Shown in pieces: positions 6,070 through 38,258 of a DNA stretch of 64,000 nt (positions are counted from its first letter, which is position 1; every line of letters starts with the position of its first letter). The stretch is from positions 1-64,000 of the forward strand of contig JAQUVX010000002.1 in assembly GCA_028693165.1 (NCBI GenBank), given 5' to 3'. Both the position numbers and the translations under genes were made by a program. The DNA comes from Lachnospiraceae bacterium (GTDB lineage Bacteria; Bacillota; Clostridia; Lachnospirales; Lachnospiraceae). The notes below the pieces were generated by a model. That model saw only the letters and a list, made by a program, of their open reading frames with translations. It was not told the origin of the DNA and searched no databases.

Positions 6070-6108
6070 GAAAAAAGATTCGGGTCGTTCCTTCAAAACG
6101 CCCGAATC
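6070..6108 (-). terminator. Intrinsic terminator after pxpA
   Basis: The stem GATTCGGGC...GCCCGAATC-like (arms 6077-6085 and 6100-6108) is followed on the minus strand by TTTTTT. It overlaps the last codons of pxpA and probably ends the liv-to-pxpA operon. Confidence 0.8.
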
Positions 6109-6848
6109 TCCACCCCCGCCCTTACAAGCTCCTGGGAAATCTTCTGCACAAACGCCAGTGCCTTCACACCATCCCCATGGACACAGACCGAATCGGCCTG
6201 GATGTCGATCTCAGTTCCATCAACGGCGGTAACCTTGCCGTCCTTTGCCATGCGGATCACCCGGGCAACGGCCTCATCCTCGTCCTCGATCATGGCACCT
6301 GCCTGGCTGCGGGGAACGAGGCTGCCGTCGCTCTGATAGGCGCGGTCTGCGAACACCTCACTGGCATAGGGCAGACCAATCTCCTTCGCCGCCTCGATCA
6401 TCTGACTGCCGCTCAGTGCCAGAAGCACCAGACTTTTGTCGACTGCCTGAATCCCCGCTGCAATCGCACGGGCGAGCGCCAGATCTTTTCCTGCCATATT
6501 ATAGAGTGCACCATGCGGTTTGACATGATTGAGGCGCAGCCCCCTCGCATCACAGAATCCCTTCAATGCGCCAATCTGGTATACAATATACGCCTTTGCC
6601 TCATCCGGCGTCACAACCATATTTCTTCTTCCAAATCCGATCAGATCCGGGAATCCCGGGTGGGCCCCCACATGAATACGATGCTCACTGCACAATGCAA
6701 CCGTCCTGTCCATCACCAGCGGATCACCCGCGTGAAAGCCGCAGGCCACATTCGCGGAGGTGATATAGGGAAGCACCTCACTGTCCATTCCAATCTTATA
6801 TGCGCCAAAACTCTCACCCAGATCACAATTCAGATCTATCGCTGCCAT
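6093..6848 (-). CDS. pxpA: 5-oxoprolinase subunit A (LamB/YcsF family)
   Basis: PxpA is one of three subunits of prokaryotic ATP-dependent 5-oxoprolinase, which opens 5-oxoproline (pyroglutamate) to glutamate. The 251-aa protein begins IDLNCDLGESFG and carries NVACGFHAGDP (about residue 45) and NHVKPHGALYN (about 115), all family hallmarks. The start is ATG at 6848 with GGGAGG upstream; the frame is open 19 codons further but that part is low-complexity. It is last in the operon, 73 bp after the DUF1445 gene. pxpB and pxpC lie just upstream, so the three subunits are all present. Confidence 0.95.
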   Translation of the reverse strand: MAAIDLNCDLGESFGAYKIGMDSEVLPYITSANVACGFHAGDPLVMDRTVALCSEHRIHVGAHPGFPDLIGFGRRNMVVTPDEAKAYIVYQIGALKGFCDARGLRLNHVKPHGALYNMAGKDLALARAIAAGIQAVDKSLVLLALSGSQMIEAAKEIGLPYASEVFADRAYQSDGSLVPRSQAGAMIEDEDEAVARVIRMAKDGKVTAVDGTEIDIQADSVCVHGDGVKALAFVQKISQELVRAGVEIRAF

Positions 6849-6921
6849 ACTGCATCCTCCCTTTCCTGCTCTCCCGCCGGACGCTTTTCCTGCTTTCCCA
6901 TCCACTCTCAGCCCGTCCGCC

Positions 6922-7719
6922 TCACAATTTCAGTTCCGCATTTCTCGCATCCGTGATAAACATATGCCCCGGCGCATGGGTAATCACAAACGGCGGCTTC
7001 GAGTTCATAACCACATTCTGCGGTGTCACGCCGCACGGCCAGAATACCGGCACCTCCCCCTCATGAATGGTCACCCTGTCACCGAAATCCGGATGCATCA
7101 GATCCACAATTCCGATTGCCTCCGGGCAGCCGATCTGCACCGGTGCTCCATGCACCCGCGGCATACCGGCCGTGATCGAAACTGCGGCCGGGACAAGATG
7201 ATGTGGGATCGGACGCATGCTGACTACCATATTTCCCGAAAATACTCCCGCCGCCGCGCAGGGAATGTTCGTCTTATACATCGGCACATTCACACCTTCC
7301 TCGATCTGGCGCACCGGAATTCCCGCCTGCAAAAGATCCGTCTCGAACGAGAAGCTGCACCCGATCAGAAAGCTTACCAGCTCCTGCCCGGACTGCTCAA
7401 AAAATGCCGACACATCGGTATATTCTCCTGTCATTTTCCCGTGCTCATAGACCCGATAGCGCGGCAGATCTTTTGCAATATCACTTCCCGCTCCAAACAC
7501 CGGAAACGTCCTGCTTCCTGCATCCGACACCTCCAGAAGCGGACAGGATTTCGGATTGCGCTGACAAAACAGCAGGAAATCATAAGCCAGCTCCTTTGGC
7601 AGCACCACCAGATTGCCCTGTGCATACCCGCTGCACATTCCCGTGGTCGGTTCTGTGATCTTCCCCTCCCGGATCAGCTGCCGCACACGGGATGGTTTCC
7701 AGCTCTCATATTCACTCAT
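6922..7719 (-). CDS. DUF1445 protein (YcsI-like), related to the N-terminal half of D-glutamate cyclase
   Basis: The 265-aa protein belongs to the DUF1445 'putative hydro-lyase' family: RQLIREGKITEPTTGMCSGYAQGN at the N-terminus, FLIGCSFSFE (about 120), and GEVPVFWPCGVTPQ (about 225). The same domain forms the N-terminal half of mammalian mitochondrial D-glutamate cyclase (DGLUCY), which makes 5-oxo-D-proline. Bacillus ycsI sits in a comparable ycsF-ycsI-kipI-kipA cluster. The start overlaps the pxpC stop by 4 bp. I infer a role in cyclising or processing D-glutamate/5-oxoproline; its exact reaction is not shown by sequence. Confidence 0.85.
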   Translation of the reverse strand: MSEYESWKPSRVRQLIREGKITEPTTGMCSGYAQGNLVVLPKELAYDFLLFCQRNPKSCPLLEVSDAGSRTFPVFGAGSDIAKDLPRYRVYEHGKMTGEYTDVSAFFEQSGQELVSFLIGCSFSFETDLLQAGIPVRQIEEGVNVPMYKTNIPCAAAGVFSGNMVVSMRPIPHHLVPAAVSITAGMPRVHGAPVQIGCPEAIGIVDLMHPDFGDRVTIHEGEVPVFWPCGVTPQNVVMNSKPPFVITHAPGHMFITDARNAELKL

Positions 7720-8807
7720 TGCACGTCACCTCCGCATAATGTCAGTAATTCCTGTCTGATCTTTGCCAGCCGCCCCGCCATAAGCCGCGTGGCCGCCACC
7801 GCCTCCTGCGGCGTCACAAATCGAAATCCCACGAGCTCGCCCGGCCTGCGCTGCGCCAGTCTCGGCAGATCTGCGCTGATGACTGTAGCGATCTTGGCAT
7901 AGCCGCCCGTGGTCTGATGATCCGCCATCATGACAATCGGCATCCCATCGGATGCCACCTGTACCGAACCCGCCACGATTCCATCTGAAATCATGTCTGA
8001 GCCGTGATATGTCTCAATCGCCGCCCCAGTCAGTTTGCATGCCATCCGATTTGATTGGGCACTCAGCTGAAAGGCCGTCTGTTCAAAGACACGAAGACCC
8101 GCTTCTGTAAACGCTTCCGCCTGCGGCCCGACCACTGCGCGCAAGATCGGATACGGAACAGAGTCCGCCACGCGCGTCCCGCTCGCCGGAAGCGGATATT
8201 TCTCCGCAGCCGCCACCCACTCTGCCACATGTTTCTCGAGCTTTTTCCGGATATGGTTGTTGGCCCTCGGCGAGCTTAAGCTGCACAGCTGATCTCCCGC
8301 CCGCAGTGCCCTTCCCTCCAGCCCTCCAATATGGCAGTTCAAGCTGGTCGAACGGCTTCCCATGAGAAGCGGTGCATTGATTCCGCCGTGTACTGCAAGA
8401 TAAGTGCGCAGACCGGCAGCTGCTGTCCCAAGCTTCAGGACATCGCCCGGCCGCAGAATCAGCGGACAATACATCGGCACCGACACGCCATTGATCTGCG
8501 GCATCATATCTGCTCCCGCCAGCGCGACGATCTCATGACTGCTGAAACGAATCTCGGCTCCGCGCAGCGTCATCTCAAGCACCGCCGGTGCCACAGCTTC
8601 ACCGCCGCCATCACTCGCCGCACCGCGGACTGTATTCCTTCTCCCCTGCTCCATACTGCTTCCAAGATTCCCCGCCAGCAGATTTGCAATCTGATAACTA
8701 TAGCAGTCACACACGCCATTTTCCTGGTACCCGCGGCTCGCACCGCCGCGGTGTCCCTGATCCTGAATCGTCGTCAGGGCTCCCGCCTCCAGAATCTCCA
8801 TAGCCAT
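7716..8807 (-). CDS. pxpC: 5-oxoprolinase subunit C (KipA / biotin-dependent carboxyltransferase family)
   Basis: PxpC pairs with PxpB in 5-oxoprolinase. The 363-aa protein has the N-terminal ALTTIQDQGHRGG motif, the central RVLPG-like region replaced by a diverged segment, and VASDGMPIVMMADHQTTGGYAKIATV typical of the family near residue 300. The usual GVPxSGAMD after the first motif reads ENGVCD here, a departure at a conserved site. The start is ATG at 8807, preceded by GAGGTGAG; the frame is open 24 codons further. It follows pxpB by 16 bp and overlaps the DUF1445 gene. Confidence 0.9.
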   Translation of the reverse strand: MAMEILEAGALTTIQDQGHRGGASRGYQENGVCDCYSYQIANLLAGNLGSSMEQGRRNTVRGAASDGGGEAVAPAVLEMTLRGAEIRFSSHEIVALAGADMMPQINGVSVPMYCPLILRPGDVLKLGTAAAGLRTYLAVHGGINAPLLMGSRSTSLNCHIGGLEGRALRAGDQLCSLSSPRANNHIRKKLEKHVAEWVAAAEKYPLPASGTRVADSVPYPILRAVVGPQAEAFTEAGLRVFEQTAFQLSAQSNRMACKLTGAAIETYHGSDMISDGIVAGSVQVASDGMPIVMMADHQTTGGYAKIATVISADLPRLAQRRPGELVGFRFVTPQEAVAATRLMAGRLAKIRQELLTLCGGDVQ

Positions 8808-8823
8808 AGTGCTCACCTCACTT

Positions 8824-9513
8824 TTACAGCCCTTCTGCGGCCTCATATTCCCGGAATTGCGCCTCGCTGATCGGCACAAACCGGATTACATCCCCGGCCT
8901 CATAGCGGGTCTTTCCGCCAGCCATGGGGTCAAACAGCTTCCACGGCGTCCGTCCGATCAGCTGCCAGCCACCCGGCGAGTCCATCGGATAGATTCCCGT
9001 CTGCTCTCCGCCGATTCCCACCGATCCCGCCGGAATCCGTGTCCGCGGATTTGAAAGCCGCGGCGTGAAGATACGCGCGTCCATTCCGCCAAGATACGGA
9101 AAACCAGGCAGAAAGCCCAGCATATAAATGCGATAATTCCGCCCGGAATGAATGTGAATCACTTCCTCCGTACTCAGCCCCGCATGTTCTGCCACAAAGC
9201 CCAGATCCTCTCCATAGCTCCCGCCATAACACACCGGAATCTCCACCAGATGCCCGCCTGCATCGCCAGCCGCCGCACTGCCGTGCGCTGCCGCCAATCC
9301 CTCAAGAATCCCGCACATCGTCTCATATTCTGTCACAAGCGGATCATAGCAGACAAGCAGGGACGCAAACGCCGGCACACATTCCCGAAATCCAGGCACC
9401 GTCTCCGCCGAAAGAAGTGCCGCAAACGCCATCACCTTCCGGTTCGTCTCCTCCTCAATCCGACTCCCAAATTCCACCAGAACCGCCTGATCTCCAACCG
9501 GTTTCATCACCAT
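8824..9513 (-). CDS. pxpB: 5-oxoprolinase subunit B (KipI family)
   Basis: PxpB is the cyclophilin-fold subunit of 5-oxoprolinase. The 229-aa protein starts with PVGDQAVLVEFG and carries the hallmark LGFLPGFPYLGGMD (about residue 130) and RIPAGSVGIGGEQTGIYP (about 160). In Bacillus the homolog KipI was first described as an inhibitor of the sporulation kinase KinA; the enzyme role is better supported in this context. AGGAGGG stands 8 nt before the start, and the gene follows the DUF4392 gene by 14 bp. Confidence 0.93.
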   Translation of the reverse strand: MVMKPVGDQAVLVEFGSRIEEETNRKVMAFAALLSAETVPGFRECVPAFASLLVCYDPLVTEYETMCGILEGLAAAHGSAAAGDAGGHLVEIPVCYGGSYGEDLGFVAEHAGLSTEEVIHIHSGRNYRIYMLGFLPGFPYLGGMDARIFTPRLSNPRTRIPAGSVGIGGEQTGIYPMDSPGGWQLIGRTPWKLFDPMAGGKTRYEAGDVIRFVPISEAQFREYEAAEGL

Positions 9514-9527
9514 AGCTGCGTCCCTCC

Positions 9528-10607
9528 TTATCCCGCCTGCGCATCAAAGAAGCCTTTCTCCAGAACCTCGCCAAACCAGTGCTCCGAATTGTGCGAATAG
9601 CGAACTGCATAAGATGTGCACTGCCGCATCAGACTCACGATCCCGGTATTCATGCGGGTATTGAATCCATCGATCCCCGGAAGCAGCGATCCGGTCATGT
9701 CGATCATCCCGCTGCGCGCCGCGACCCGCATAACCTCCGCCTCCATCTCCTCCCGGTGCAGGATCTCCATATCCTTTTTCAAATAAGCAAGCGCTGCCAT
9801 CAGTCCATAGCAGCCCCAGTCCGAACAGGTCGCCGTGATAATGTGATCTGTGGTACTCGCCGCCAGGATTCCCCCGCCGCAGCCGCACTGGCATTCGCCG
9901 TGATCCGTAAACGGAACGTATTTCCGGATATGCTCCGCAATCGCTCCCATTCCGATCTCATTGCCCAGATCGCCGATGGCGATATTCAAAATTCCGCGTT
10001 CTTTCAAATGGTTCCACAGCACATCCGACTTCGCCTCAAGCGCAGTCACATCCTTCCCGACCGCATTGTGATAATGACCGCAGGCGTTTGCCCCCGGTGC
10101 CTCCACCGAGATCACAGCGGCCGGAACAATCGACGCCAACAGCGCTTCCGCCTGTGCATCCGCCTCATCTGCGTTCTTCGTGAATGCCACTACGCCCATG
10201 CTGAGCGGCAGCTCCATGACCGCCTTAAGATCCTCATAGATGTGAAGGCCCACCACGCTGGCACATTTTTTGACTGCCTCCACACTGTCCGCCGGGCAGA
10301 CGATAATTGGCTTGGCCTGAAACGCCAGAACCAGCGCCCGGGAAAGCAGCAGTGCACTGACCATGCCGTCCATCTCCGGTACCTTGTGGGGGAGCAAAAC
10401 GAAACCCGTCAGAATAAAGACTGCCTCTCCTTCCTTCACCGCACCGCACAGCGCCTCTGCCGCATGCATGGTCAGCGGTTCCCCTGTATAGGTCCGGCTC
10501 CCGGCATACAGAATTCTACAGACACCGTAGCCCCGCGGATCCAGATTCATAAGCGTATCCAAATTCTCCCCGACATTCCACTTTTCCAGCTCTTCCCTGT
10601 TCATCAT
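9528..10607 (-). CDS. DUF4392 glutamate-cyclase-domain protein (C-terminal half of DGLUCY)
   Basis: The 359-aa protein matches the D-glutamate-cyclase-like C-terminal family (DUF4392): ILTGFVLLP (about residue 70), ETDG-like PEMDGMVSALLLSRAL (about 80), ISVEAPGANACGHYHNA (about 170) and IGIGDLGNEIGMG-like (about 215, here IAIGDLGNEIGMG). In mammals this domain is fused behind a DUF1445 domain; here the two are separate genes three positions apart. The start is ATG at 10607, because AGGAGG precedes it by 8 nt; the frame is open 28 codons further. Likely activity: conversion of D-glutamate to 5-oxo-D-proline, inferred from the family. Confidence 0.87.
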   Translation of the reverse strand: MMNREELEKWNVGENLDTLMNLDPRGYGVCRILYAGSRTYTGEPLTMHAAEALCGAVKEGEAVFILTGFVLLPHKVPEMDGMVSALLLSRALVLAFQAKPIIVCPADSVEAVKKCASVVGLHIYEDLKAVMELPLSMGVVAFTKNADEADAQAEALLASIVPAAVISVEAPGANACGHYHNAVGKDVTALEAKSDVLWNHLKERGILNIAIGDLGNEIGMGAIAEHIRKYVPFTDHGECQCGCGGGILAASTTDHIITATCSDWGCYGLMAALAYLKKDMEILHREEMEAEVMRVAARSGMIDMTGSLLPGIDGFNTRMNTGIVSLMRQCTSYAVRYSHNSEHWFGEVLEKGFFDAQAG

Positions 10608-10687
10608 GTCCTCATCCTCCTGCTGCCCGTTCCATTTTTCATAACCGCTTTTTGCAATCCATTCTCTATCTGCATTCACCGTCCGGA

Positions 10688-11548
10688 TCAAAGATCGAAG
10701 ATACTGCTCCTCCCCGTATACTCCAGATATTCGCAGATTACCGCGTCCTGAATCAGCTTCAGTGTCTCCGGATCTTTCCCGCCAGCCTTCACGCCGTCCA
10801 CCTCACACGCGTGCAGGCAGAAATTGGAGGAAGAAGTCACGATAATCTCATCCGCATCCATCAGCTCCTTCAGCGTAAACGCACGCTCCATCACCTGAAT
10901 TCCCAGCCGATAGCACGCCGCAATCATATGCGTCTTGGAAATTCCCCGCAGAATCAGATTATCATTCGGATGAGAAATAAACACGCCGTCCTTCAAAATC
11001 GACACATTGCTGTGTGCGCACTCGGTCACCAGATCTGCGCGGTGCAGCACCGTTTCATCCGCCCCCAGCCGCTCCGCCTCCTGCGCCGCCATCACGGACG
11101 GAAGCAGATTCAGCGTCTTGATGTTGCAGTGATAGAAACGGGTATCCTCCCGCGTGATCAGCTTGATCGCGTGATCCGGGTTCTTCAGTTTGTTCGGCCG
11201 GATCATCACCCAGAGCTTGCCCTTCATGTCCTCGCTGTACACATGGTTGCGGGAAGCCGCTCCACGCGTCACCTGCCAGTATACAAAATGCGTATCCCCC
11301 TCCACCTTCGCAAGCAACTCCGTCAAAAGTCTCCCCAGCTCCTCTTTCTCCATGGGAATCTTGATGTCCAGCGCCTTCGCACTGGAATAGAAGCGATCCA
11401 GATGATCCCGTAGCAGATACACCTTGTGGTTTCCGCCCACCGTCGCGTCATACACGCCATCCCCGAAGAAATGTACTCTGTCATTAAATGGTACCGTCAA
11501 CGCATCCGGCGTTCCGATCGCGCCATCATAATATGCTAATTCTTTCAT
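10688..11548 (-). CDS. dat: D-amino-acid transaminase (class IV aminotransferase)
   Basis: This PLP enzyme family swaps amino groups between D-amino acids and 2-oxo acids, typically D-alanine + 2-oxoglutarate to pyruvate + D-glutamate. The 286-aa protein has the fold-type IV Lys in HCNIKTLNLLPS (about residue 145), an early FGDGVYD, and TSSSNFCLHACEVDG near residue 250. It is closer to D-amino-acid transaminase than to branched-chain IlvE, although the two families are related and substrate choice cannot be settled from sequence. It overlaps the kinase-like gene by 4 bp and precedes the cyclase gene by 80 bp. Confidence 0.88.
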   Translation of the reverse strand: MKELAYYDGAIGTPDALTVPFNDRVHFFGDGVYDATVGGNHKVYLLRDHLDRFYSSAKALDIKIPMEKEELGRLLTELLAKVEGDTHFVYWQVTRGAASRNHVYSEDMKGKLWVMIRPNKLKNPDHAIKLITREDTRFYHCNIKTLNLLPSVMAAQEAERLGADETVLHRADLVTECAHSNVSILKDGVFISHPNDNLILRGISKTHMIAACYRLGIQVMERAFTLKELMDADEIIVTSSSNFCLHACEVDGVKAGGKDPETLKLIQDAVICEYLEYTGRSSIFDL

Positions 11549-12183
11549 GATTTTCCTCCAAATTTCAATTGAATATAGGTCTCAATCAACGTCACACATG
11601 CATCCAGCCCCAGCCGCGACGTATCCAGACAGAGATCATAATTCTCCGGATTCTTCCACCGCCGGCCGGTGTGATACACATAGTAGGAATTCCGATACTT
11701 ATCCAGGCGATTGATATATTTTTCCGCTTCGGCCCGCTGGATTCCCTGCCGCTCCATCTCCCGCTTCACGCGAAATTCATACGGCGCGTCCAGATACACC
11801 GACAGCACATTGTCCTTATCCCGCAGCACAAAATCCGCCGCGCGCCCCACGCAAATGTAGGATTCATGCTCCAGCAGCTCCCGCAGAATTTTCGCCTGAT
11901 AATGAAACAGATTCTGATCCGACACGAAATTCCCGCTCTCCGGCGGAATGATCTCGCCGTTGTAGATACGCTGCGAAACCCGGTACAGCAGCGTCTTTTT
12001 CGTATTTTCATCGGCATTTGCAAAAATGGTCTCGTTGATTCCGCTGTCGTCGGAGGCCAGCCTCAAAAGCTTCCGGTCATACAGGTCAATCCCGTAATGC
12101 TCCGCCAGCTTCTTTCCAATATAGCTTCCACCCCCGCTTCCGCAGGTGCGGGTAATCGCAATCGCAAATCGTTTTTCTTCCAT
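11545..12183 (-). CDS. Cytidylate-kinase-like family protein
   Basis: A 212-aa P-loop protein of the cytidylate-kinase-like family (Cmk-like 2), which is abundant in Clostridia. The P-loop region TRTCGSGGGSYIGKKLAEH lies near the N-terminus and is followed by DRKLLRLAS, FVSDQNLFHYQA and VGRAADFVLRD. The true substrate of this family is unknown; nucleotide monophosphate phosphorylation is assumed from the fold only. It sits between livF (9 bp) and the transaminase gene (4-bp overlap), so it is translated as part of the D-glutamate/5-oxoproline operon. Confidence 0.85.
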   Translation of the reverse strand: MEEKRFAIAITRTCGSGGGSYIGKKLAEHYGIDLYDRKLLRLASDDSGINETIFANADENTKKTLLYRVSQRIYNGEIIPPESGNFVSDQNLFHYQAKILRELLEHESYICVGRAADFVLRDKDNVLSVYLDAPYEFRVKREMERQGIQRAEAEKYINRLDKYRNSYYVYHTGRRWKNPENYDLCLDTSRLGLDACVTLIETYIQLKFGGKS

Positions 12184-12192
12184 GTTCCCCTC

Positions 12193-12891
12193 CTACTGAC
12201 CGAGATACGCCTTCCTGACCCGGTCATCCTTCAGCAGTTCTCTGGCATCGCCCTCGATGGTAATGTCACCCGTCTCCAGCACGTAGGCCCGATTGGAGAT
12301 GGACAGCGCCATCTTCGCATTCTGCTCGACCAGCAGAATGGTAATCCCCTGCTTATTGACCTCTTTGATAATGGAAAATATTTCCTTTACCAGCAGCGGC
12401 GAAAGCCCCATTGACGGCTCATCCATGAGGATCATCTTGGGCTTGCCCATCAGCGCGCGCCCCACGGCCAGCATCTGCTGCTCACCGCCTGACAAGGTGC
12501 CCGCCAACTGTCTGCGCCGTTCCTTCAGCCGCGGAAACCGCTCATAGACCTCCGCCATGGTCGCCGCCATATCCTTCACATCTGCAAATGCACCCATCTC
12601 CAGATTCTCTTCCACCGTCATCTGTGCAAATATGTGACGTCCTTCCGGCACATGCGCCAGCTTCAGATTGATGATCCGGCTCGGCTCCGTCTTTCGAAGA
12701 TCCGATCCGTCAAATGTTATCTCGCCCGTGTCCGCCTTCTGCAGTCCCGAAATGGTGCGCAGTATCGTCGTCTTGCCCGCTCCGTTTGCTCCGATCAGCG
12801 ACACGATCTCTCCGTCTCTGACCTGCAGCGAAACGCCGTGGATGGCATGAACAGCTCCGTAGGATACCTCCAAATTTTTTACCTCAAGCAT
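12193..12891 (-). CDS. livF: Branched-chain amino acid ABC transporter ATPase LivF
   Basis: Second ATPase of a LIV-type (HAAT) importer, 232 aa: Walker A GANGAGKTT, signature LSGGEQQMLAVGRAL, Walker B MILMDEPSMGLSP. The start chosen is MLEVKNLEVSYG at 12891, which overlaps livG by 8 bp and has GAGGAGG upstream inside livG; ten further open codons upstream are Arg-rich and unlikely. LIV-type systems carry leucine/isoleucine/valine but also other amino acids and amides, so the cargo may match the downstream D-amino-acid genes. Confidence 0.95.
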   Translation of the reverse strand: MLEVKNLEVSYGAVHAIHGVSLQVRDGEIVSLIGANGAGKTTILRTISGLQKADTGEITFDGSDLRKTEPSRIINLKLAHVPEGRHIFAQMTVEENLEMGAFADVKDMAATMAEVYERFPRLKERRRQLAGTLSGGEQQMLAVGRALMGKPKMILMDEPSMGLSPLLVKEIFSIIKEVNKQGITILLVEQNAKMALSISNRAYVLETGDITIEGDARELLKDDRVRKAYLGQ

Positions 12892-13732
12892 CCGCCTGCA
12901 CCTCCTCATCCTCGTCTTCATCCTTGCCCAGATAAGCCTCGATTACCTTCGGATTGTTGGCAACTTCCCCCGGTGTTCCCGAAGCGATGGTCGTGCCAAA
13001 ATCCAGCACCTGAATCCGCTCACAGATCTTCATCACCAGGCTCATGTCATGCTCGATCAGCAGCACGGAAATCTTGAATTCATTCCGAATATAATTGATG
13101 ATCTCCAAAAGCTCCTCCGTCTCCGTCGGGTTCATCCCTGCTGCCGGTTCATCCAGAAGCAGCAGCTTCATATCTGTCGCCAACGCCCTGGCGATCTCCA
13201 GCCGGCGCTGCTGTCCATAAGGCAGATTGGATGCCGCATAATCTTCCTTTCCGCTCAGATGCACGATCTTCAAGAGTTCTTTGGCCCGCTCCGTGATTTT
13301 CTCTTCCTCGCGCCAGTACGTCGGTGTGCGGAAAATCGCGTGTACAAGTCCGTAGGTCAGCTCCGCATTCATCGCCGCCTTGACATTGTCGATGACCGAC
13401 ATTTTCTTGAATAACCGAATGTTCTGAAAGGTTCTCGCAATTCCGGCCTCCACGATCTGACAGGTCTTCTTGCCGTTCATACATTCACCGTTTAAGTAAA
13501 AGGAACCTTCCGTCGGCCGGTAAACCCCCGTGATCAAATTGAACACCGTAGTCTTGCCCGCACCGTTTGGCCCGATCAGACCGACCAGCTCCGACTGACC
13601 GATCTCCATATTAAATCCATCCACCGCCTTCAGACCGCCGAACTGGATTCCCAGGTTCTGCGCCTTCAGCACCGGAACCGTTGCCGACGCTGTTGCTGTT
13701 GCTTCCGTCGTTGCTGCCATCGCTTCTGCCAT
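12884..13732 (-). CDS. livG: Branched-chain amino acid ABC transporter ATPase LivG
   Basis: First LIV-type ATPase, 282 aa: Walker A GPNGAGKTTVFNLITG, signature LPYGQQRRLEIARAL, Walker B LLLLDEPAAGMNP, C-terminal LGKD. The first 20 residues are an unusual Ala/Thr-rich leader before VLKAQNLGIQFGG, and the C-terminus is acidic (DEDEDEE), both absent from the typical 255-aa protein. It follows livM by 2 bp and overlaps livF. Confidence 0.95.
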   Translation of the reverse strand: MAEAMAATTEATATASATVPVLKAQNLGIQFGGLKAVDGFNMEIGQSELVGLIGPNGAGKTTVFNLITGVYRPTEGSFYLNGECMNGKKTCQIVEAGIARTFQNIRLFKKMSVIDNVKAAMNAELTYGLVHAIFRTPTYWREEEKITERAKELLKIVHLSGKEDYAASNLPYGQQRRLEIARALATDMKLLLLDEPAAGMNPTETEELLEIINYIRNEFKISVLLIEHDMSLVMKICERIQVLDFGTTIASGTPGEVANNPKVIEAYLGKDEDEDEEVQADA

Positions 13733-13734
13733 GC

Positions 13735-14796
13735 CTACACACCTGCCTTTCCCTTCTCATGTGCCTCGTCCTGTACGTTCGCCCGCACTGTACCCTGCAC
13801 CGCGTCCTGTGCTGCACCGCGCCCGCCTCTGCCGGTAAGCCGTTTCAAAAGCCGGGTCAGCGAGAATTCCCAGTCACCGAAGATTCCCGCCGGTTTGAAG
13901 ATCATGACCAGCACCAGCACCACCGAGTAAGCCAGCATCCGGTACTGTGAGAACTGACGCATCATCTCAGGCAGCGAGGAAAGGAATGCCGCACCGATCA
14001 CCGATCCGGTCAAAGATCCGATTCCGCCAATGATGACCTCCGACAGCAGCTCCGCCGAGTACATAAAGTTGAAGTTGGTCGGAATCATAGCCGTCATATA
14101 ATGCGCGTAGATTCCGCCGCCTATCCCCGCGAAAAACGCCGATACCACAAAGGTCATGACCTTATAATACGTCACATTGATTCCCGAAGCCGCCGCCGCG
14201 ATATAATCCTCCCGGATCGCCTTGACTGTCCGCCCAAACCGGCTGCGTACAAACATATACATAATGGTCACGCAGACCACCATAATCCAGAAGCACCAGT
14301 AGAAATTCGACAGCTTCAGGATTCCGCTCATGGTCTTGCCGCCCCCGGTGATCGCAAAATTGCAGAAACACACGCGGATAATTTCCGCAAATGCCACCGT
14401 CACGATTGCCAGATAATCGCCGCGCAGCCGCAGTGCCGGAACCCCCACGGCCAGCCCCGCCAGGCCTGCCGCAATGCCGCCAGCCAGCAGCGCCACCAGG
14501 AAAAGTCCGATATCCGGAAGCCCCTTTCCCGCCAGTGCATTGGAGACGATCGCGGAAGCGTACGCGCCGACCGAGACGAATCCTGCATGGCCGAGAGAAA
14601 ACTCACCCATACAGCCCACCACCAGATTCAGCGATGCCACCATGATGATTGTGTAACAGGCCGTAGTGCAGATTCCCTTGAAATACTGGGTGGAGGAACC
14701 AAAGATCTTCGATTCAAATACCGCCATCAACAGCAGGAAGATCATAAAGATCCCGAGAAAGTTGATGAGATAGGACACTTTATCACTTTTTTTCAT
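13735..14796 (-). CDS. livM: Branched-chain amino acid ABC transporter permease LivM
   Basis: Permease of the LIV-type importer, 353 aa with about nine hydrophobic segments and the family motif GNFSLGH-like GEFSLGHAGFVSVGAYASA (about residue 65). The start is ATG at 14796 with GGAGG upstream; the frame is open 11 codons further. The C-terminal 35 residues (Gly/Arg/Ala-rich) extend past the membrane core. It follows livH by 13 bp. Confidence 0.95.
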   Translation of the reverse strand: MKKSDKVSYLINFLGIFMIFLLLMAVFESKIFGSSTQYFKGICTTACYTIIMVASLNLVVGCMGEFSLGHAGFVSVGAYASAIVSNALAGKGLPDIGLFLVALLAGGIAAGLAGLAVGVPALRLRGDYLAIVTVAFAEIIRVCFCNFAITGGGKTMSGILKLSNFYWCFWIMVVCVTIMYMFVRSRFGRTVKAIREDYIAAAASGINVTYYKVMTFVVSAFFAGIGGGIYAHYMTAMIPTNFNFMYSAELLSEVIIGGIGSLTGSVIGAAFLSSLPEMMRQFSQYRMLAYSVVLVLVMIFKPAGIFGDWEFSLTRLLKRLTGRGGRGAAQDAVQGTVRANVQDEAHEKGKAGV

Positions 14797-14809
14797 AAGC
14801 TTACCTCCA

Positions 14810-15700
14810 TCAGACTTTCTCGCCCACATTCTTGCCGAGAATGCCGGACGGTTTTACCAGAAGAATCACGATCAGCGTGGCATAGGTGATCGCCTCGTAC
14901 CAGCCCGGAGCGAATAATTTCACAAAAATCTCAATCAGGCCGACCAGCACGCCGCCCAGCATTGCCCCCGGGATAATGCCGATGCCGCCGAGTACCGCGG
15001 CGATAAAGGCCTTGATGCCCATCATCGATCCCATATCGTTGGTCACCCGCGGATACTTCGCACAATACATAAGCGCTGCAACCGCCGCCAGTGCCGAACC
15101 GATTGCAAAGGTATAGGTGATGACCCGGTTCACATTGATTCCCGCCAGAATCGAAGCATCCCGATCCTGCGGCACCGCGCGCATGGCCTTGCCCATTTTC
15201 GTCTTTTTGATGAAAAGCTGTAGTCCCAGCATCATGACCACGCCGATAACGATCGTCAGGATCACGTTCAGCGGAAGCGGCACGCCCAGGAAATTGACAC
15301 TCGGCAGACTGAAAATCTTCTGCACATTGTGCGGCTTCGCACCAAACAGCAGCATGGCCAGATTTTCCAGAAACAGGCTCATCGCCATCGCCGTGATCAG
15401 CGCCGACATAGCCCCCGCCTTACGGACCGGCTTATAGGCAATCACCTCAACCAGCACACCCACCGCGGAGCACACCACAATCGAGATGAACACCGCCAGC
15501 CACGCCGGCATCCCCACGTTGATCATCAGGGGAATCGTGTAAAATAATGTATAAGATCCAATCATGATGAAATCGCCATGTGCGAAATTAATCATGCGGA
15601 TAATGCCATAGACCATGGTGTACCCGAGTGCAATCAGTGCATAGATCGCACCCTGATTCAGCCCATTGATTAAGCTTTGAATAAAGAGAGAAAATGTCAT
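14810..15700 (-). CDS. livH: Branched-chain amino acid ABC transporter permease LivH
   Basis: Second LIV-type permease, 296 aa. It starts with NGLNQGAIYALIALGYTMVYG and IRMINFAHGDFIMIGSY, the LivH signature, and has about eight membrane segments. GGAGG precedes ATG 15700; 31 extra open codons upstream are not family-like. It lies 129 bp after livJ; that gap may allow higher expression of the binding protein than of the membrane parts, but no clear terminator is visible there. Confidence 0.95.
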   Translation of the reverse strand: MTFSLFIQSLINGLNQGAIYALIALGYTMVYGIIRMINFAHGDFIMIGSYTLFYTIPLMINVGMPAWLAVFISIVVCSAVGVLVEVIAYKPVRKAGAMSALITAMAMSLFLENLAMLLFGAKPHNVQKIFSLPSVNFLGVPLPLNVILTIVIGVVMMLGLQLFIKKTKMGKAMRAVPQDRDASILAGINVNRVITYTFAIGSALAAVAALMYCAKYPRVTNDMGSMMGIKAFIAAVLGGIGIIPGAMLGGVLVGLIEIFVKLFAPGWYEAITYATLIVILLVKPSGILGKNVGEKV

Positions 15701-15829
15701 GCTGTGCTTCCTCCGTTTCTTTGTGTTTGGAACTTCTTCCCGTCTTCCCTGAACAAGGAAATGTGCATTTCGACCGGATAGGCCGCCATGCACATTTCAT
15801 AATCTGTTGTTCCACACTTGCGCTCAGAA

Positions 15830-17089
15830 TCAGCTCTGCTCGCCCGACGGAGACAAGGTCATCAGCCATTTCACTTTGCCGTTGTCGTAGGTGTTGATTG
15901 CTACGGATTTCTCCGGATCTCCATTCCCGTCCAGCGTGAAGGTTCCGCCGACACCGGTAAAGGTCATTTCGGTCATTCCCTTCACCAGGCTTGCGGTATC
16001 TGCTCCGCCGCCGTTCTTTGCCGCCTCAACCATCATGTAGATTGCATCGTAGTACAAGGCCGCACATGCATTCAGGCTATCCTCCCCGTAGGCCTTCGTA
16101 TACTTGGATACAAAGTTTGCAACTGCCGGTGCGGTATCCTCAGAAGAATAATGGTTGGTAAAGTAGCAGTTTGCGAAGCTGTCTTCCAAACCGCTGGTGT
16201 CTGCGCCGTCCCAGCCGTCACCGCCCATGATCGCACCGTCAAACCCTGCATCCCGCGCTGCGCCTACCAGAAGCGGTACCGTGTCAAGGAAACACGGATA
16301 GAACAGGAAGTCGGCTCCATTTGCCACAACCTGCGATGCCTGTGCGGTAAAATCAGTATCCTTGGTCGTACACTCACCGGTGTATACAACCTCGATGCCA
16401 TTGGCCTCGGCATTCTCGACAAAGGCATCCTTCAGACCATTGGAATAATCATCGTCCTTCGCATAAATGATCGCCGCCTTGGTCCAGCCCTTCTCCTTTG
16501 CAAAACTCGCTGCCATCTTCCCCTGATATGGATCGATGAAGCAGTCACGGAAAATAGTGCCGCCCTTTAAGGTCACGTCCTTATTGGTCGCGCCAGTTGC
16601 CAGAAGAAGCATATTGTCCTTGGATGCCTGCTCTGCGATGGGAAGGGTTACCGAGGAGAAGAAGCAGCCGATGATTGCCGACGGATCCTCTGCCATCAGG
16701 CTGTTGTATGCATTGATGGCCTGCTTCGCATCACTGGCATCATCCACACCCTTTCCCCCATTTAATATTTCTACCTTATACTCGGAATCACTTGCATTGA
16801 TCTCCTCCGCCGCCATGGTAATCGCATTCTGTGCGCCTTCCCCATAGATTGCGGAACCGCCGGTCAGAGAACAGATCACACCGACCCTGACCGTCTTGTC
16901 ATCGGATGCCGGAGCGGCTGTACTGCCACCTGCTGCACCGCCGGCTGCGGTCGTCTCTGCCGCCGTACTGCCTGCCGCCGCGGTTGCTGCTCCGCCCGCT
17001 GCGCTCTGCTGTGCCGAAGATCCACAACCCGCCAGTAATGTCGCCACCATGGCCGCACTCAGTGCTACGGATAACATTCTCTTTTTCAT
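15830..17089 (-). CDS. livJ: Branched-chain-type amino acid ABC transporter substrate-binding lipoprotein
   Basis: A 419-aa extracellular lipoprotein: signal peptide with lipobox LLAGC (Cys22), an Ala/Gly/Thr-rich flexible linker to about residue 65, then a type I periplasmic-binding fold (VRVGVICSLTGGSAIYGEGAQNA..., AIIGCFFSSVTLPIAEQ, MGGDGWDG). The family binds branched-chain amino acids or related compounds; pocket specificity cannot be read here. It is the first gene of the operon, with a strong promoter and a hairpin-bearing leader upstream. Confidence 0.93.
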   Translation of the reverse strand: MKKRMLSVALSAAMVATLLAGCGSSAQQSAAGGAATAAAGSTAAETTAAGGAAGGSTAAPASDDKTVRVGVICSLTGGSAIYGEGAQNAITMAAEEINASDSEYKVEILNGGKGVDDASDAKQAINAYNSLMAEDPSAIIGCFFSSVTLPIAEQASKDNMLLLATGATNKDVTLKGGTIFRDCFIDPYQGKMAASFAKEKGWTKAAIIYAKDDDYSNGLKDAFVENAEANGIEVVYTGECTTKDTDFTAQASQVVANGADFLFYPCFLDTVPLLVGAARDAGFDGAIMGGDGWDGADTSGLEDSFANCYFTNHYSSEDTAPAVANFVSKYTKAYGEDSLNACAALYYDAIYMMVEAAKNGGGADTASLVKGMTEMTFTGVGGTFTLDGNGDPEKSVAINTYDNGKVKWLMTLSPSGEQS

Positions 17090-17160
17090 AATTGATTCCT
17101 CCTCTTTTTTCGATTCGCATAAAGTCCGCTGCTTTCAAAGCTCCGCCAACCGGTAAGCCC

Positions 17161-17212
17161 AAAAGAAAAGAGGCCCACAGCCGCAGAATTCGTTCTGCGA
17201 CGGGACCTCTTT
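17161..17212 (-). terminator. Intrinsic terminator hairpin inside the liv operon leader (possible attenuator)
   Basis: On the minus strand, AAAGAGG(T)CCC pairs with GGGCCTCTTT around an inner CGCAGAA-CGAA-TTCTGCG stem, followed by TTTTCTTTT. It starts about 20 nt past the predicted transcription start and ends about 75 nt before livJ, so it would stop most transcripts unless an anti-terminator acts. It could also back-stop read-through from the upstream gene. Confidence 0.75.
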
Positions 17213-17238
17213 GTTCTCTCGTTCTTTATGTTGAGGGA

Positions 17239-17267
17239 ATTATAACATCCTCATTTTTAAATGACAA
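17239..17267 (-). promoter_or_regulatory. Predicted promoter of the liv - D-glutamate/5-oxoproline operon
   Basis: Minus strand: -35 TTGTCA, 17-nt spacer, -10 TATAAT with an upstream TG (extended -10). A near-consensus sigma-A promoter about 150 bp before livJ. Confidence 0.8.
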
Positions 17268-17356: not shown

Positions 17357-17395
17357 CAAAAAATCCGAAAGAATCATTGGCGCAGGCCATCGGAT
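17357..17395 (-). terminator. Weak terminator at the end of the 287-aa cell-wall-binding gene
   Basis: ATCCGA pairs with TCGGAT around a small inner GGC-GCC stem and is followed by TTTTTT on the minus strand. The stem spans the stop codon of the gene. Confidence 0.5.
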
Positions 17396-18237
17396 CCCAA
17401 CACATAGCCATCCACCTCCGCATCATGCGCCATCGTGCCATCTGCGTTCAAATAATAATATTTCCCAGGCAGATCCATGATCCATCCGGTCTGCATACTG
17501 CCGTCCTTCGCCATATAATACCACGCATCATCCCACACGATCCACCCGGTCGCCATACGTCCGTCCGTATCACTCAGATAATAGCGTTTTCCGTCCCGCT
17601 CCTGCCAGCCCAGCAGGCGATAGCCGTTCTCGTCCAGGAGATACCAGTCTCCCCGGATCAGCTGCCAGCCGCCCGGAAGAAACTCACCGTCACCATCCTC
17701 GTATTTGCTGCCCTCCAGATAGTTGCGCCATTTTCCTTCGGTAATCCCCTGTACGGTCTTCCCGCGGAAATCTACCGTCTGGGACGCCGTCCAATCACCA
17801 TAGTTCACATAAGCCAGTTCGCTGGTCTTCGGCGTCGCCCGCACCACGAAGAAATAAGAATGCAGATCGTTCATATATTCAGAGAAATCACAGCTTGTAT
17901 CCGACGTTCGCCTGGACATAACACACTCTGCCTCCGTCATGCTCTCATCCTCAAAATCAATCGTCCGCCAGTTCTCCTCGTCCCGATCCACAAAATCCGC
18001 CACATAAAGCTTAACCTGATATTCATGCGCCTTGCTGACAGAGGACCATTTGCCCACTGTGTCCGTCTCCCACCACACGTGCTTCGGCGTGCCAAGCTCC
18101 ACTGTATCCACCGCCCGGTCTTCTGCATAAACCGGTCTGCTCATCGCCATACTGCCGATTACCGTCATTCCAAAGGCCACAAGCAAAACGATCCTTCTCC
18201 GAATGCTTCCTACCCTTTTTTCTGCACTTCCGCTCAC
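17374..18237 (-). CDS. Secreted cell-wall-binding repeat protein with an Fn3-like domain (287 aa)
   Basis: A GTG start at 18237 is indicated by GGAGG 6 nt upstream; an ATG further up lacks such a site. The N-terminus carries a signal peptide (RRRIVLLVAFGMTVIG..., likely cleaved after VYA, about residue 38). A beta-sandwich, Fn3-like segment (about 45-150; KWSSVSKAHEYQVKLY ... YFFVVRATPK) is followed by about five cell-wall-binding repeats of the GW.x.GxWYYL type (about 175-275). Such repeats hold proteins on wall polymers. No catalytic domain is visible. It is related to the proteins at 18397 and 39980. Confidence 0.85.
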   Translation of the reverse strand: MSGSAEKRVGSIRRRIVLLVAFGMTVIGSMAMSRPVYAEDRAVDTVELGTPKHVWWETDTVGKWSSVSKAHEYQVKLYVADFVDRDEENWRTIDFEDESMTEAECVMSRRTSDTSCDFSEYMNDLHSYFFVVRATPKTSELAYVNYGDWTASQTVDFRGKTVQGITEGKWRNYLEGSKYEDGDGEFLPGGWQLIRGDWYLLDENGYRLLGWQERDGKRYYLSDTDGRMATGWIVWDDAWYYMAKDGSMQTGWIMDLPGKYYYLNADGTMAHDAEVDGYVLGSDGLRQ

Positions 18238-18330
18238 TGTTTTCCTCCATTTACATTCCCTGACTGGCTCACCAGCACCTGATCTGGTTTCACTATACCA
18301 GAAAACTATGAAAAATCTGTGATAAGAAAC

Positions 18331-18381
18331 TGCAAAAACACCTCCACAGAAGCATCCTGCCGATGCCTCCATGAAGGTGTT
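18331..18381 (-). terminator. Terminator after the 430-aa cell-wall-binding gene
   Basis: On the minus strand AACACCTTCA...TGGAGGTGTT with an inner GGCATC/GATGCT pairing forms a long imperfect hairpin followed by TTTTT, 16 bp after the stop at 18397. Confidence 0.75.
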
Positions 18382-18396
18382 CCATGATCCGTTTTC

Positions 18397-19689
18397 TTAT
18401 CTTACCCACACACCGTCTGCATTCACATAAAAGGTGTCAATGTTTGTATTCACTGCCTTGTTGCCTGCACCCGGATAGAAATAGTACCAGTTTCCGTCCA
18501 CCTGATTCCAACCCTCAGCCATGGCTCCGTCTGCCGTAAAGTAATACGTCTTCCCGCCGATATCCATCCAATGATTCTTCACCAGACATCCGTAAAAGGT
18601 ATCCTGCGTCGGATTCAGATAATACCAGCGCTGGCCCGCCTGAATCCAGCCGATCTGCATATCGCCGCTTCCAGTCAGATAAAACGTCTGGCCGCCGACA
18701 TTCTGCCAGCCGGTCAGCATACGACCGTCGCTCTGGAACAGATACCACTTATCCGCCACCTTCAGCCAGCCATTCTTCTGATAGGAACCATCCGGGAAAT
18801 AATAATACCAGTTATTGTCTCTCTTCTGCCAGCCCACCGTCATGTTGCCGCTCGGGCTGGATGTATTTCCACCGCCCGGACCGCCGCTGGTGATACCGGA
18901 ACTGCCGGAGCCACTCTGGCCGGAGCCATCCGAGACATCCTCTTTGGCCAGATAAATCTCATCCGAATCCACCCATTCACTCTTGGTTCCACTGTCATCC
19001 TGCTTGTTCGTCTTGGCGATCGTGCGCACGCGGAAGGTATACGTTCCCGCGGAAGTCATATAAGGATAGAAGTTGTAGCTGCGTGAAGTTGTCTCCACCG
19101 AATGAATCTTGTTTGAACCGCGGCGAAGCACCACCTCGTAGTTGCCTGTTCCACCTTCTTCCGGCTCTTCCCAGCGTGCAGTTCCTTTGGAATTGTCTTT
19201 CCAGTAGGCATCCTCCGGCGCCGGAAAGGTTCCCTTGATCGCCCGTACCTTCAGACGAACCACCAGATCATCACCCTTCTTCGATGCACTCACAAAGGTA
19301 CCATAGCGAATGCTCACGTTGCTGGAGCGGTAAGTCCCTTTAAACCTGTAATCATCGTTATCCGCGCTGTTCGGTGTCAGAGTAACCTTCATCTCCGGCG
19401 TATCCCCGACCTTCATGGTTTTGCTTGTGGAGGTGGTCCACTCTGCTGAGGTAATGCTGTACTTGGTGGATGAATTGGAGATACAAATATCTCCATCCGA
19501 AACCGTTCCGCTGTCTCCGTCATTGCTGTAATCAATACTTGGCAGTGTTGTCTCAGATTCCAGTTCTGAGTTGATGCGAAGCGTCACACTGGAAACCGTC
19601 TTATCCGATGCCATCGCAGGCATCGCTCCCAATGTACTGATCGCCAGAGCCATCACCAGGGCCCAGGATATACCGTTTTTTCTACTCAT
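18397..19689 (-). CDS. Secreted cell-wall-binding repeat protein, N-domain + Fn3-like + repeats (430 aa)
   Basis: The signal peptide ends near AMASDK (about residue 28). Residues 30-150 form an unrecognised beta-rich domain (VTLRINSE ... KVGDTPEMKVTL ... LVVRLKVRAIKG). Residues 155-245 are Fn3-like (ARWEEPEEGGTGNYEVVLRRG ... YTFRVRTI). A Gly/Ser linker follows, then about six wall-binding repeats (GWxxxxxxWYYYxPDG) from residue 290 to the end. The start is ATG 19689 with GGGAG upstream. The same layout appears in the protein at 39980, including the DN.F and VVRL stretches, so both belong to one family. Confidence 0.85.
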   Translation of the reverse strand: MSRKNGISWALVMALAISTLGAMPAMASDKTVSSVTLRINSELESETTLPSIDYSNDGDSGTVSDGDICISNSSTKYSITSAEWTTSTSKTMKVGDTPEMKVTLTPNSADNDDYRFKGTYRSSNVSIRYGTFVSASKKGDDLVVRLKVRAIKGTFPAPEDAYWKDNSKGTARWEEPEEGGTGNYEVVLRRGSNKIHSVETTSRSYNFYPYMTSAGTYTFRVRTIAKTNKQDDSGTKSEWVDSDEIYLAKEDVSDGSGQSGSGSSGITSGGPGGGNTSSPSGNMTVGWQKRDNNWYYYFPDGSYQKNGWLKVADKWYLFQSDGRMLTGWQNVGGQTFYLTGSGDMQIGWIQAGQRWYYLNPTQDTFYGCLVKNHWMDIGGKTYYFTADGAMAEGWNQVDGNWYYFYPGAGNKAVNTNIDTFYVNADGVWVR

Positions 19690-19741
19690 AAGACTCCCTC
19701 TTTTCTGCATATAATCGAACACAAACATTCTTTATAACTCT

Positions 19742-19962: not shown

Positions 19963-21065
19963 TTACGCACATAAAAGTCTTTTCCCTTCCTCACGGATAT
20001 TGATTGCCGCATTCAGATCGCGATCCATCCTGTTTCCGCATTCACAGATATAGACTCGCTCTGATAAGGCCAGGTCTTGTTTGATTTTCCCACAACAACT
20101 GCATTTTTTACTAGACGGATAATATCGATCTACTTTGACCAGCTTTTTTCCCTGCCTTTCCAGTTTATAGCTCAGCATATTCAAGAAAGAACCGTAGCTG
20201 TTATCCATAACCCCGCGCCCCAGATGTAGTCCCATGCTCATATCTTTTAAGTTCAGATTCTCCACGCATACAGCATCATACATTCCGGCTAACCTTGTAC
20301 TCAGTTTATGCTGGAAATCTTTCCTCTGATTCTTGATTTTCTGATGAATCCCTGCCACTTTCCTGCGCTGTTTTACATAGTTTCGGCTTTTCTTCTCACA
20401 GTGGGAAAGCTTCCTCTGTTCCCTTACAAGCCTCTCATCTGCTTATAGCACATCGGATATTCGGCTCTGGTACCATCTGAAAATACCGCCATTCCATCCA
20501 TCGCAAAGTCGATCCCCAGAAGTTGTCCCCGACCCGTATGCGGTTCTATCACTTGGCTTTCGTAATAGTACAGCAGGCTGGCATAGTATTCTCCCGATGG
20601 CTCCTGTGTGATGGTCACTGATTTCAGTTGGTACTCATCCGGTATTTCCCGGTGAACTACGATTTTGACGCTCTTCAGCTTCGGCAGCTGAATTCTTCTA
20701 TTCAGGAGCTTAATATTTCCATTTACCAGATTTGTGGTATAGCTCGCACTTCCACGATGCTTTGACTTGAATTTCGGAAATCCGGCAGCCGGTTCCCGAA
20801 AAAACTTCTTATACGCCGCTTCCAAATGCAGCTGCACATTGGCCAGTGCCAGTGAATCCACTTCTTTCAGCCACGGAAACTCTTTCTTGTACATAGCAGG
20901 CGTCGTATGAAACATCTTTTTATTCTTTTGATACTCATCAATCTTATCTGCCAGCATTCGATTATAGAGGAACCGGCAACATCCAAACGTCTTCGCCAGC
21001 TGGATCCGCTGGTCCTCGGTCGGATAAATACGAAAGCGATATGCGATATTCAAACTACTTCTCAC
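19963..21065 (-). pseudogene. tnpB: RNA-guided TnpB nuclease gene broken by a one-base frameshift
   Basis: The N-terminal part (213 codons from 21065) ends at a TAA at 20424-20426. The next frame, open from about 20442 to 19963, continues the protein at once (ERLVREQRKLSHCEKK). A one-base loss near 20436-20440 explains this. All three RuvC acidic positions are kept: Asp in LLGIDFAMDG, Glu in VCVENLNLKDM, Asp in MDRDLNAAINI. The zinc-binding CSCCG and CECGN motifs are also present. I see no slippery heptamer, so a mutation or sequencing error is likelier than programmed frameshifting. It overlaps tnpA by 11 bp. Confidence 0.85.
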
Positions 21066-38029: not shown

Positions 38030-38258
38030 AAAAAAAGTCGCCTCCTTTTCGCACTTTAGTTGAAGTACGACAAGCGGTGACTGTACACATCTCCGTGTGT
38101 GTCGCGTCGGACCCACACTGCGTTACTGCATAATATAACTCTACAGCTGTTCAATTGGTACAGTGACTTGTCGTCAGTTTCCTAACTTGACATTCGCTCC
38201 ACGGAACACCTGCCACAACGGGCAGCAACCTCACGCTTCACAGCTATCATGTCACAGC
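38030..38258 (-). other. Structured leader of the S10 operon
   Basis: About 230 nt separate the predicted start site from rpsJ. A long-range pairing joins 38158-38172 and 38069-38086 (ACTGTAC with GTACAGT and GACAAG with CTTGTC), enclosing about 70 nt with smaller stems. It probably serves transcription or translation control. No known family could be assigned by eye. Confidence 0.55.

Follow-up and report, generated by a model that had tools for sequence, protein, structure and literature searches.

A twelve-gene Lachnospiraceae operon joining an amino-acid importer, a D-amino-acid-type transaminase, DGLUCY-related families and PxpABC: a candidate route through D-glutamate and 5-oxoproline

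What could a bacterium gain from a gene run that places a complete amino-acid importer before a D-amino-acid-type transaminase, relatives of both domains of the mammalian D-glutamate cyclase DGLUCY, and the 5-oxoprolinase genes pxpA, pxpB and pxpC? The question is raised by the window, i.e., the whole stretch of 64,000 nucleotides analysed here (Lachnospiraceae bacterium, assembly GCA_028693165.1, contig JAQUVX010000002.1, positions 1 to 64,000), whose minus strand carries twelve co-directional and tightly packed genes at 6093-17089. The reading preferred here, to which a probability of roughly one half is given, is that of an operon for amino-acid use, running through D-glutamate and 5-oxoproline back to glutamate.

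The run, read from the open-frame list with Pfam and NCBIfam matches, has the order livJ-livH-livM-livG-livF-cytidylate-kinase-like-dat-DUF4392-pxpB-pxpC-DUF1445-pxpA:

15830..17089, minus strand: livJ, amino-acid binding protein of the importer (PF13458, 2.2e-47; alignment with 1usg)
14810..15700, minus strand: livH, permease (BPD_transp_2; start set by Shine-Dalgarno sequence)
13735..14796, minus strand: livM, permease (BPD_transp_2; start set by Shine-Dalgarno sequence)
12884..13732, minus strand: livG, ATPase (ABC_tran and the branched-chain C-terminal domain BCA_ABC_TP_C)
12193..12891, minus strand: livF, ATPase (ABC_tran; start set by Shine-Dalgarno sequence)
11545..12183, minus strand: cytidylate-kinase-like gene, between livF and dat (PF13189, 5.7e-51)
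10688..11548, minus strand: dat, class IV transaminase of D-amino-acid type (PF01063, 5.1e-41)
9528..10604, minus strand: DUF4392 gene, of a long clade with a CxCxC insert (PF14336 'GLUCM-like_C', 1.5e-85)
8824..9513, minus strand: pxpB (CT_C_D, 6.3e-79; over the TIGR00370 cut-off)
7716..8807, minus strand: pxpC (CT_A_B, 7.5e-76; start set by relatives)
6922..7719, minus strand: DUF1445 gene (PF07286 'D-Glu_cyclase', 3.6e-69)
6093..6848, minus strand: pxpA (LamB_YcsF, 1.7e-106; start set by Shine-Dalgarno sequence)

With starts placed at Shine-Dalgarno sequences or, for livG and pxpC, which have no detectable one, by comparison with relatives, the intergenic gaps are at most about 130 bp wide, with overlaps of 4-8 bp between some neighbours. 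The LIV/HAAT-type ATP-binding cassette (ABC) importer is complete, with its binding protein, two permeases and two ATPases. Among the curated models, PxpA exceeds the cut-off of NF003814 (378.9 vs 226) without reaching the narrower equivalogs NF003812, NF003813 and NF003815, PxpB exceeds that of TIGR00370 (224.9 vs 145.6), and PxpC lies over TIGR00724 (239.6 vs 230.2) and under the equivalog NF045499 (216 vs 500). The best NCBIfam model for Dat is the D-amino-acid transaminase TIGR01121, yet Dat scores below its cut-off (214 vs 277 bits). The G+C content of the operon is 0.555, against 0.507 for the window. All the operon genes named in the original prediction, made from the letters of this DNA, are found on the minus strand with the identities that it gave them, and the murI gene that it placed elsewhere in the window is matched by PF01177 at 58491-59045; the PF13189 gene and a hairpin in the leader of the operon had been overlooked.

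The first step in answering the question is to look for the same run in other genomes. DUF4392 is matched over the Pfam cut-off in 7 of 120 genomes of the family (30 of 397 in a larger, overlapping draw) and in 13 of 391 genomes of a class sample; matches below the PF14336 cut-off (G535 and G589 in the family sample, G247 in the class sample and a second match in G693) were left uncounted. Seven loci were added by one protein scan of named genome contigs, and the proteins of the window were matched to the open frames of 7 + 18 + 22 stretches around DUF4392 in all. The twelve genes occur in the same order in seven other loci (L008, L012, L028, L034, L069, L071 and L009, the last with its DUF1445 gene cut by a contig end), and each of the eight operons with this order includes the PF13189 kinase-like gene. 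The core of DUF4392, DUF1445 and Pxp genes is found in 18 more loci: L010, L011, L014, L029 (with an end fragment of DUF1445), L031, L040, L041, L042, L044, L070, L073, L074, L078, L082, L083, L084, L085 and L086. In L072, DUF4392 stands with PxpB at a contig end. L084 and L086 also carry LIV and kinase-like genes, which score lower and stand in another order beside a DUF4392 of another clade. A single run in which a LIV importer accompanies the D-glutamate and 5-oxoproline genes had been proposed for the window, and its neighbourhood proves to be conserved in relatives. Since the order recurs elsewhere and the two families related to the cyclase halves co-occur genome-wide, the run is more than a chance association.

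This co-occurrence, which the original prediction had proposed to check in Clostridia, is found at both levels sampled. DUF1445 is matched in 12 of the 13 class-sample genomes with DUF4392 against 11 of the 378 without it (Fisher 8e-16), and in 24 of 30 against 12 of 367 in the family sample (Fisher 3e-24), counts and tests that ignore the kinship of the genomes and that include two DUF4392 genomes common to both samples. DUF1445 and DUF4392, separate-gene relatives of the two DGLUCY domains as had been stated, do track each other across genomes. Seven genomes have DUF4392 without a DUF1445 match: G045 and G670, where DUF4392 lies on a short or end-cut contig and PxpA is not matched (G045 shows an end fragment of DUF1445), G063, which has PxpA, and G297, G693, G719 and G786, in which PxpA is not matched either. 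PxpA was found in 22 of the 23 genomes having DUF1445 only, one of them with no more than an end fragment. Of the 22 DUF4392 genomes examined for it, 16 have PxpA, as do 2 of 25 genomes with neither family, hand-picked from those listed without matches. The comparison of DUF1445-only genomes with those having neither family indicates that DUF1445 is tied to 5-oxoproline genes in general, and DUF4392 is an addition in a subset. Pxp genes stand beside DUF1445 in 7 of the 11 stretches from DUF1445-only genomes of the class sample and are absent from the other 4; in genomes with an unlinked DUF4392, they do so in 2 of 6 stretches. In the family sample, G072 and G777 each hold two DUF1445 copies, the second lower-scoring, and no DUF4392.

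The DUF4392 proteins themselves fall into distinct clades, in a tree that leaves out L013 (incomplete DUF4392) and the archaeal protein TON_0340. The long clade, to which the window belongs, has 18 rows with support 100/99, all of them with the CxCxC insert and an SDW motif; 17 adjoin a Pxp gene, the exception being L068, at a contig end, and Dat accompanies 13. A second clade contains 12 short forms with the motif SNWGAY, nine of them with Pxp and DUF1445. Dat occurs within the stretch in eight of these nine Pxp-linked loci; in L083, dat is found on the opposite strand at a distance of about 3 kb. Among the remaining 15 short rows, one is linked to Pxp genes (L042). They include an SNWW group of seven (L030, L032, L033, L075, L076, L077 and L079; SNWWGW in six and SNWWSW in one) that has no adjoining pxp genes, though the genomes have PxpA (7/7) and DUF1445 (6/7); in L030, a gene for an aconitase C-terminal domain, LeuD-like by sight, adjoins the DUF4392 gene. 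L088 and L089, two rows on long branches, were given no weight; L089 also has the CxCxC string. By motif comparison, TON_0340, which stands outside the tree, has the ETDG and SNWG of the short forms. Its metal is bound by Glu59, Asp61, Glu115, Asp157, Glu161 and Asp246 (PMC5132392), and the aligned DUF4392 of the window keeps counterparts of all six. In an AlphaFold model of DUF4392 (7 sequences), the mean predicted local distance difference test score (pLDDT) is 65 and the insert, residues 213-250, lies below 50, so that the geometry of CxCxC is unreadable.

What the operon is fed with may be approached through LivJ and Dat. The closest solved relative of Dat is the Bacillus D-amino-acid aminotransferase (3e-48), and Dat keeps the residues aligned with Y31, R98, H100 and K145 of 3daa, the first three of which we take to be the carboxylate trap, and the last the Schiff-base lysine, of the Bacillus enzyme (1DAA/3DAA). 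In the alignment with 1usg, LivJ keeps the equivalents of S79, T102 and Y150 of the leucine-binding protein and has Asp for E226, positions which presumably contact the ligand. Without naming a ligand, this pocket favours an alpha-amino acid over 5-oxoproline as the probable load. The best guess would be alanine or D-alanine, an alanine-type substrate being favoured because relatives carry alanine racemase, Na/alanine symporters and Lrp/AsnC regulators. In a variant of the front end, dat and alanine racemase are found together inside or beside the clusters of L040, L041 and L044; a Na/alanine symporter gene adjoins dat in L073 (Pfam) and L083 (by sight) and lies downstream in L012; Lrp/AsnC genes are near L040, L031 and L012. 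Other front ends differ more: L084 and L070 have a class I aminotransferase in the run in place of dat, and in L042, which has no dat, a TRAP transporter adjoins the DUF1445 and DUF4392 genes, the latter two overlapping. As MurI- and Alr-family genes are found once each in the genome of the window, dat is probably not needed for wall D-glutamate.

Two candidate signals precede livJ:

17239..17267, minus strand: promoter-like site TTGTCA-17-TATAAT with TG before the -10 box (11/12 matches), before livJ
17160..17212 (approximate), minus strand: leader hairpin and T-rich tract, putative attenuator/terminator (-29 kcal/mol, z -6.1)

The promoter-like site, whose outer edge at 17267 coincides with the right-hand limit of the original prediction, is the best of 14 in the region, where shuffles give 10.1 +/- 2.9 sites. 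Each of the eight operons of this type has, between livJ and a promoter-like site, a stable hairpin with a U-rich tract after it. In the other seven, the hairpins, picked by eye, have z from -3.5 to -7.9 in the folding test, and the best promoter-like site has 9-12 of 12 matches, the shuffle control applying to the window only. The site lies 17-163 nt upstream of the hairpin across the eight operons, and the distance from the -10 box to the hairpin is 26 nt in the window, L008 and L034 alike. The frame upstream in L034 points the other way, so its hairpin is not the terminator of that gene. The pattern AACRANGAGGTTTC occurs twice in the window against 2.2 expected and has exact matches in 3 of 123 loci, which argues that the operons share the shape and position of the hairpin rather than its sequence. 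Compared with Rfam, the livJ leader gives a chance-level match only, and the leader RNA before the hairpin in the window is too short for a leader peptide of useful length. Taken together, the leader hairpin suggests transcription attenuation of the operon. An ANTAR-type hairpin pair and a T-box were considered for the leader and dropped, as neither fits all eight sequences by eye. A strict terminator finder, which also missed the hairpins of the window, L008, L028 and L069, found none before livJ in L084 and L086. Terminator-like hairpins stand 28-91 nt before the first gene in L031, L070, L072, L073, L082, L083 and L086, and the strict finder gave none before the first gene in L014, L040, L041, L042, L044 and L085.

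The route that we infer, with its reactions, its transported ligand and a complex of the two cyclase halves, as well as its attenuation, would run as follows. LivJHMGF would import a neutral amino acid of small size, at best guess alanine or D-alanine, and Dat would move its amino group onto 2-oxoglutarate, so that D-glutamate is formed along with the 2-oxo acid. In partnership, as a separate-chain counterpart of DGLUCY, DUF1445 and DUF4392 would use a divalent metal to convert D-glutamate into 5-oxoproline. PxpABC would open this to glutamate at the expense of ATP, and the route as a whole would thereby be one-way. For L-glutamate to result, the stereocentre would have to be inverted, by DUF4392/DUF1445 or in a further step, as the cycle would otherwise be futile. 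A more specific form of the proposal is offered tentatively, with odds clearly short of even: an ATP-driven, one-way route from D- to L-glutamate, in which the new CxCxC clade of DUF4392 would cyclise and invert with DUF1445, PxpABC would release L-glutamate and the Rfam-unmatched leader terminator would set expression.

Several points weigh against the preferred route, and its stereochemistry is the weak one. The product of DGLUCY is 5-oxo-D-proline (PMC5339696), while descriptions of PxpABC concern the L form, 5-oxo-L-proline (PMC13274462). PxpABC might accept the D form as well, with nothing but D-glutamate regained; or one of the DUF1445 and DUF4392 proteins might invert the stereocentre; or the D branch might run towards opening. 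Dat and PxpABC fit the D-glutamate recycling of the original prediction, which left this matter of D and L unaddressed. Invertebrate relatives keep DUF4392 but not DUF1445 (PMC5339696). In the same way, TON_0340 is a stand-alone DUF4392 protein, so that pairing with DUF1445 is not always needed, and it was reported as a weak Mn-dependent phosphatase (PMC5132392). The DUF4392 of the window has EAPG for ETPG, EMDG for ETDG and SDWGC for SNWGA, together with a CxCxC insert that TON_0340 lacks. As the metal acids are kept but the flanking motifs differ, the long DUF4392 would share its family and metal site with TON_0340, and its reaction may differ. As a cyclase half, it retains the domain and the six acids; with different active-site neighbours, the activity is not simply transferable. 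The idea of DUF1445 as purely a cyclase half is rejected, since it often occurs without DUF4392 (23 of 57 DUF1445 genomes). Pxp genes adjoin DUF4392 in only 21 of the 41 DUF4392 genomes of either sample whose stretches were read; the other 20 include G670, G503 and G632, where DUF4392 is near a contig end. In the genus, DUF4392 is restricted to the window's own genome (1 of 24), a scarcity that, with the higher G+C of the operon, would be compatible with acquisition by transfer or with repeated loss. As for the substrate, the pocket of LivJ is changed relative to the leucine-binding protein (W18 to Tyr, Y202 to Phe, Y276 to Cys), and the ligand is therefore not readable from sequence. It is relatives, rather than the window, that supply the alanine-linked genes, and in L083 a serine dehydratase beta-chain gene (Pfam) followed by an alpha-like gene (by sight), at 10329-11873 between DUF4392 and dat, gives a hint of serine as substrate in some clusters.

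The stereochemical conflict disappears if the operon salvages both forms of 5-oxoproline, which would be imported and opened by PxpABC (L form) and by DUF1445/DUF4392 (D form), Dat draining the D-glutamate to 2-oxoglutarate; every enzyme then has a function, and a racemase can be dispensed with. An uptake gene for 5-oxoproline forms part of known pxp operons (PMC13274462), and an NRAMP/YcsG-like gene is recognised by sight in the DUF1445-Pxp clusters L097, L099, L103 and L104, from genomes without DUF4392; none is found inside the twelve-gene runs of the window and four of the others. However, LivJ keeps residues aligned with the alpha-amino-acid contacts of the leucine-binding protein, alanine racemase and Na/alanine symporter genes would be unfitting neighbours, and the direction reported for DGLUCY is cyclisation, not opening (PMC5339696). 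This salvage is considered unlikely.

Less probable still is that the long DUF4392 is a metal-dependent hydrolase or phosphatase, working perhaps with the cytidylate-kinase-like protein, and that another lactam or a modified amino acid is degraded through PxpABC-type chemistry. The low Mn-dependent phosphatase activity of TON_0340 (PMC5132392) would agree with this, as would the altered active-site neighbours and the insert in 18/18 long-clade rows. The kinase-like gene, present in 8/8 operons, is moreover no general companion of LIV operons: this was considered for the genome of the window (G000), which has nine PF13189 matches over the cut-off, eight of them above 160 bits, and was rejected, as no other PF13189-PF13458 pair lies within 10 kb, the nearest being about 11 kb apart and made of two weak matches. 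Nevertheless, DUF4392 is fused to DUF1445 in mammalian DGLUCY (PMC5339696), the two families co-occur here, and the clusters of L040, L041 and L044 keep Dat, DUF4392, Pxp and DUF1445 with no kinase-like gene.

The weakest candidate is a valve that regulates D-glutamate for the cell wall: Dat would make D-glutamate from D-alanine for peptidoglycan, while the cyclase and PxpABC remove the excess. Wall precursors need D-glutamate and Dat supplies it in some Firmicutes, but a MurI-family gene is present in the genome, 23 of the 24 genomes searched in the genus have no DUF4392 and a dedicated importer would be superfluous for the wall, which makes this improbable.

Around the operon and in related loci, other features were observed. 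Directly upstream, 17374-18372 and 18397-19728 on the minus strand encode two proteins with choline-binding/cell-wall repeats. Beyond these, two adjacent minus-strand frames match parts of TnpB, the C-terminal one (Cas12f1-like TNB) at 19963-20358 and the N-terminal one (HTH_OrfB_IS605) at 20424-21065, and a TnpB-type transposon gene thus appears to lie in two pieces at 19963-21065. The sole Rfam match in the whole window is an S10-Clostridia ribosomal protein leader (38168-38249, minus strand, 89.9 bits). Biotin carboxylase and biotin carrier genes adjoin pxpC/pxpB in L040 (2735-4558, Pfam) and L044 (3174-4960, by sight), which raises the question whether PxpBC might act there with biotin, like urea carboxylase.

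The operon can finally be compared with known systems. PxpA, PxpB and PxpC are common to the window and to the PxpABC operons of B. subtilis (ycsF/ycsG/ycsI/kipI/kipA) and C. glutamicum (pxpTABC). The profile search gives PF07286 matches in B. subtilis, of which ycsI is presumably the DUF1445 gene. In Bacillus, ycsI belongs to the same operon as the Pxp genes (PMC10448178). These operons have an NRAMP/APC-type uptake gene, whereas the window has a LIV ABC importer in its place and adds Dat, DUF4392 and the cytidylate-kinase-like protein. The LIV importer shares its five components with LIV/HAAT importers and stands here beside cytidylate-kinase-like and 5-oxoproline genes; Dat shares four active-site positions with the Bacillus enzyme 1DAA/3DAA while falling below the curated cut-off for D-amino-acid transaminases. 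With TON_0340 of Thermococcus onnurineus (PDB 4fc5, 5gl4), the DUF4392 of the window has in common a sequence match of 1e-19 and the six acidic ligands, but TON_0340 differs by its ETPG/SNWG-type motifs and its lack of an insert and has, to our knowledge, no known DUF1445, Pxp or Dat context.

Mammalian DGLUCY/GLUCM (C14orf159; 9030617O03Rik) shares with the window the DUF1445 and DUF4392 domains and the six metal acids of the DUF4392 family. It is a single chain, whereas the window has two genes with pxpB and pxpC between them, and the DUF4392 of the window belongs to a divergent CxCxC clade. No single chain of DUF1445 and DUF4392 was found in the genus, family and class samples, where the longest open frame holding a DUF4392 match over the cut-off is that of the window itself, at 424 aa. 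Split homologues of DGLUCY in neighbouring genes of gut bacteria are already listed in a 2024 preprint (PMC11580864, Table 1: GLUCM_HUMAN, 0 full, 6 split). In searches of an open-access library, neither a description of dat, DUF4392, DUF1445, PxpABC and LIV together nor an assigned bacterial reaction for DUF1445 was found. DUF4392 has been assigned to a cyclase in one case and to a phosphatase in another, and the operon offers a concrete candidate substrate chain; it may explain how bacteria handle D-glutamate and D-5-oxoproline, the latter being excreted by humans (PMC5339696), and the split bacterial genes could help to tell apart the roles of the two DGLUCY halves. While PxpABC operons with an uptake gene, the DGLUCY fusion and its split homologues are already known, what would be new is a variant of the 5-oxoprolinase operon that combines a LIV importer, dat and a divergent clade of DUF4392.

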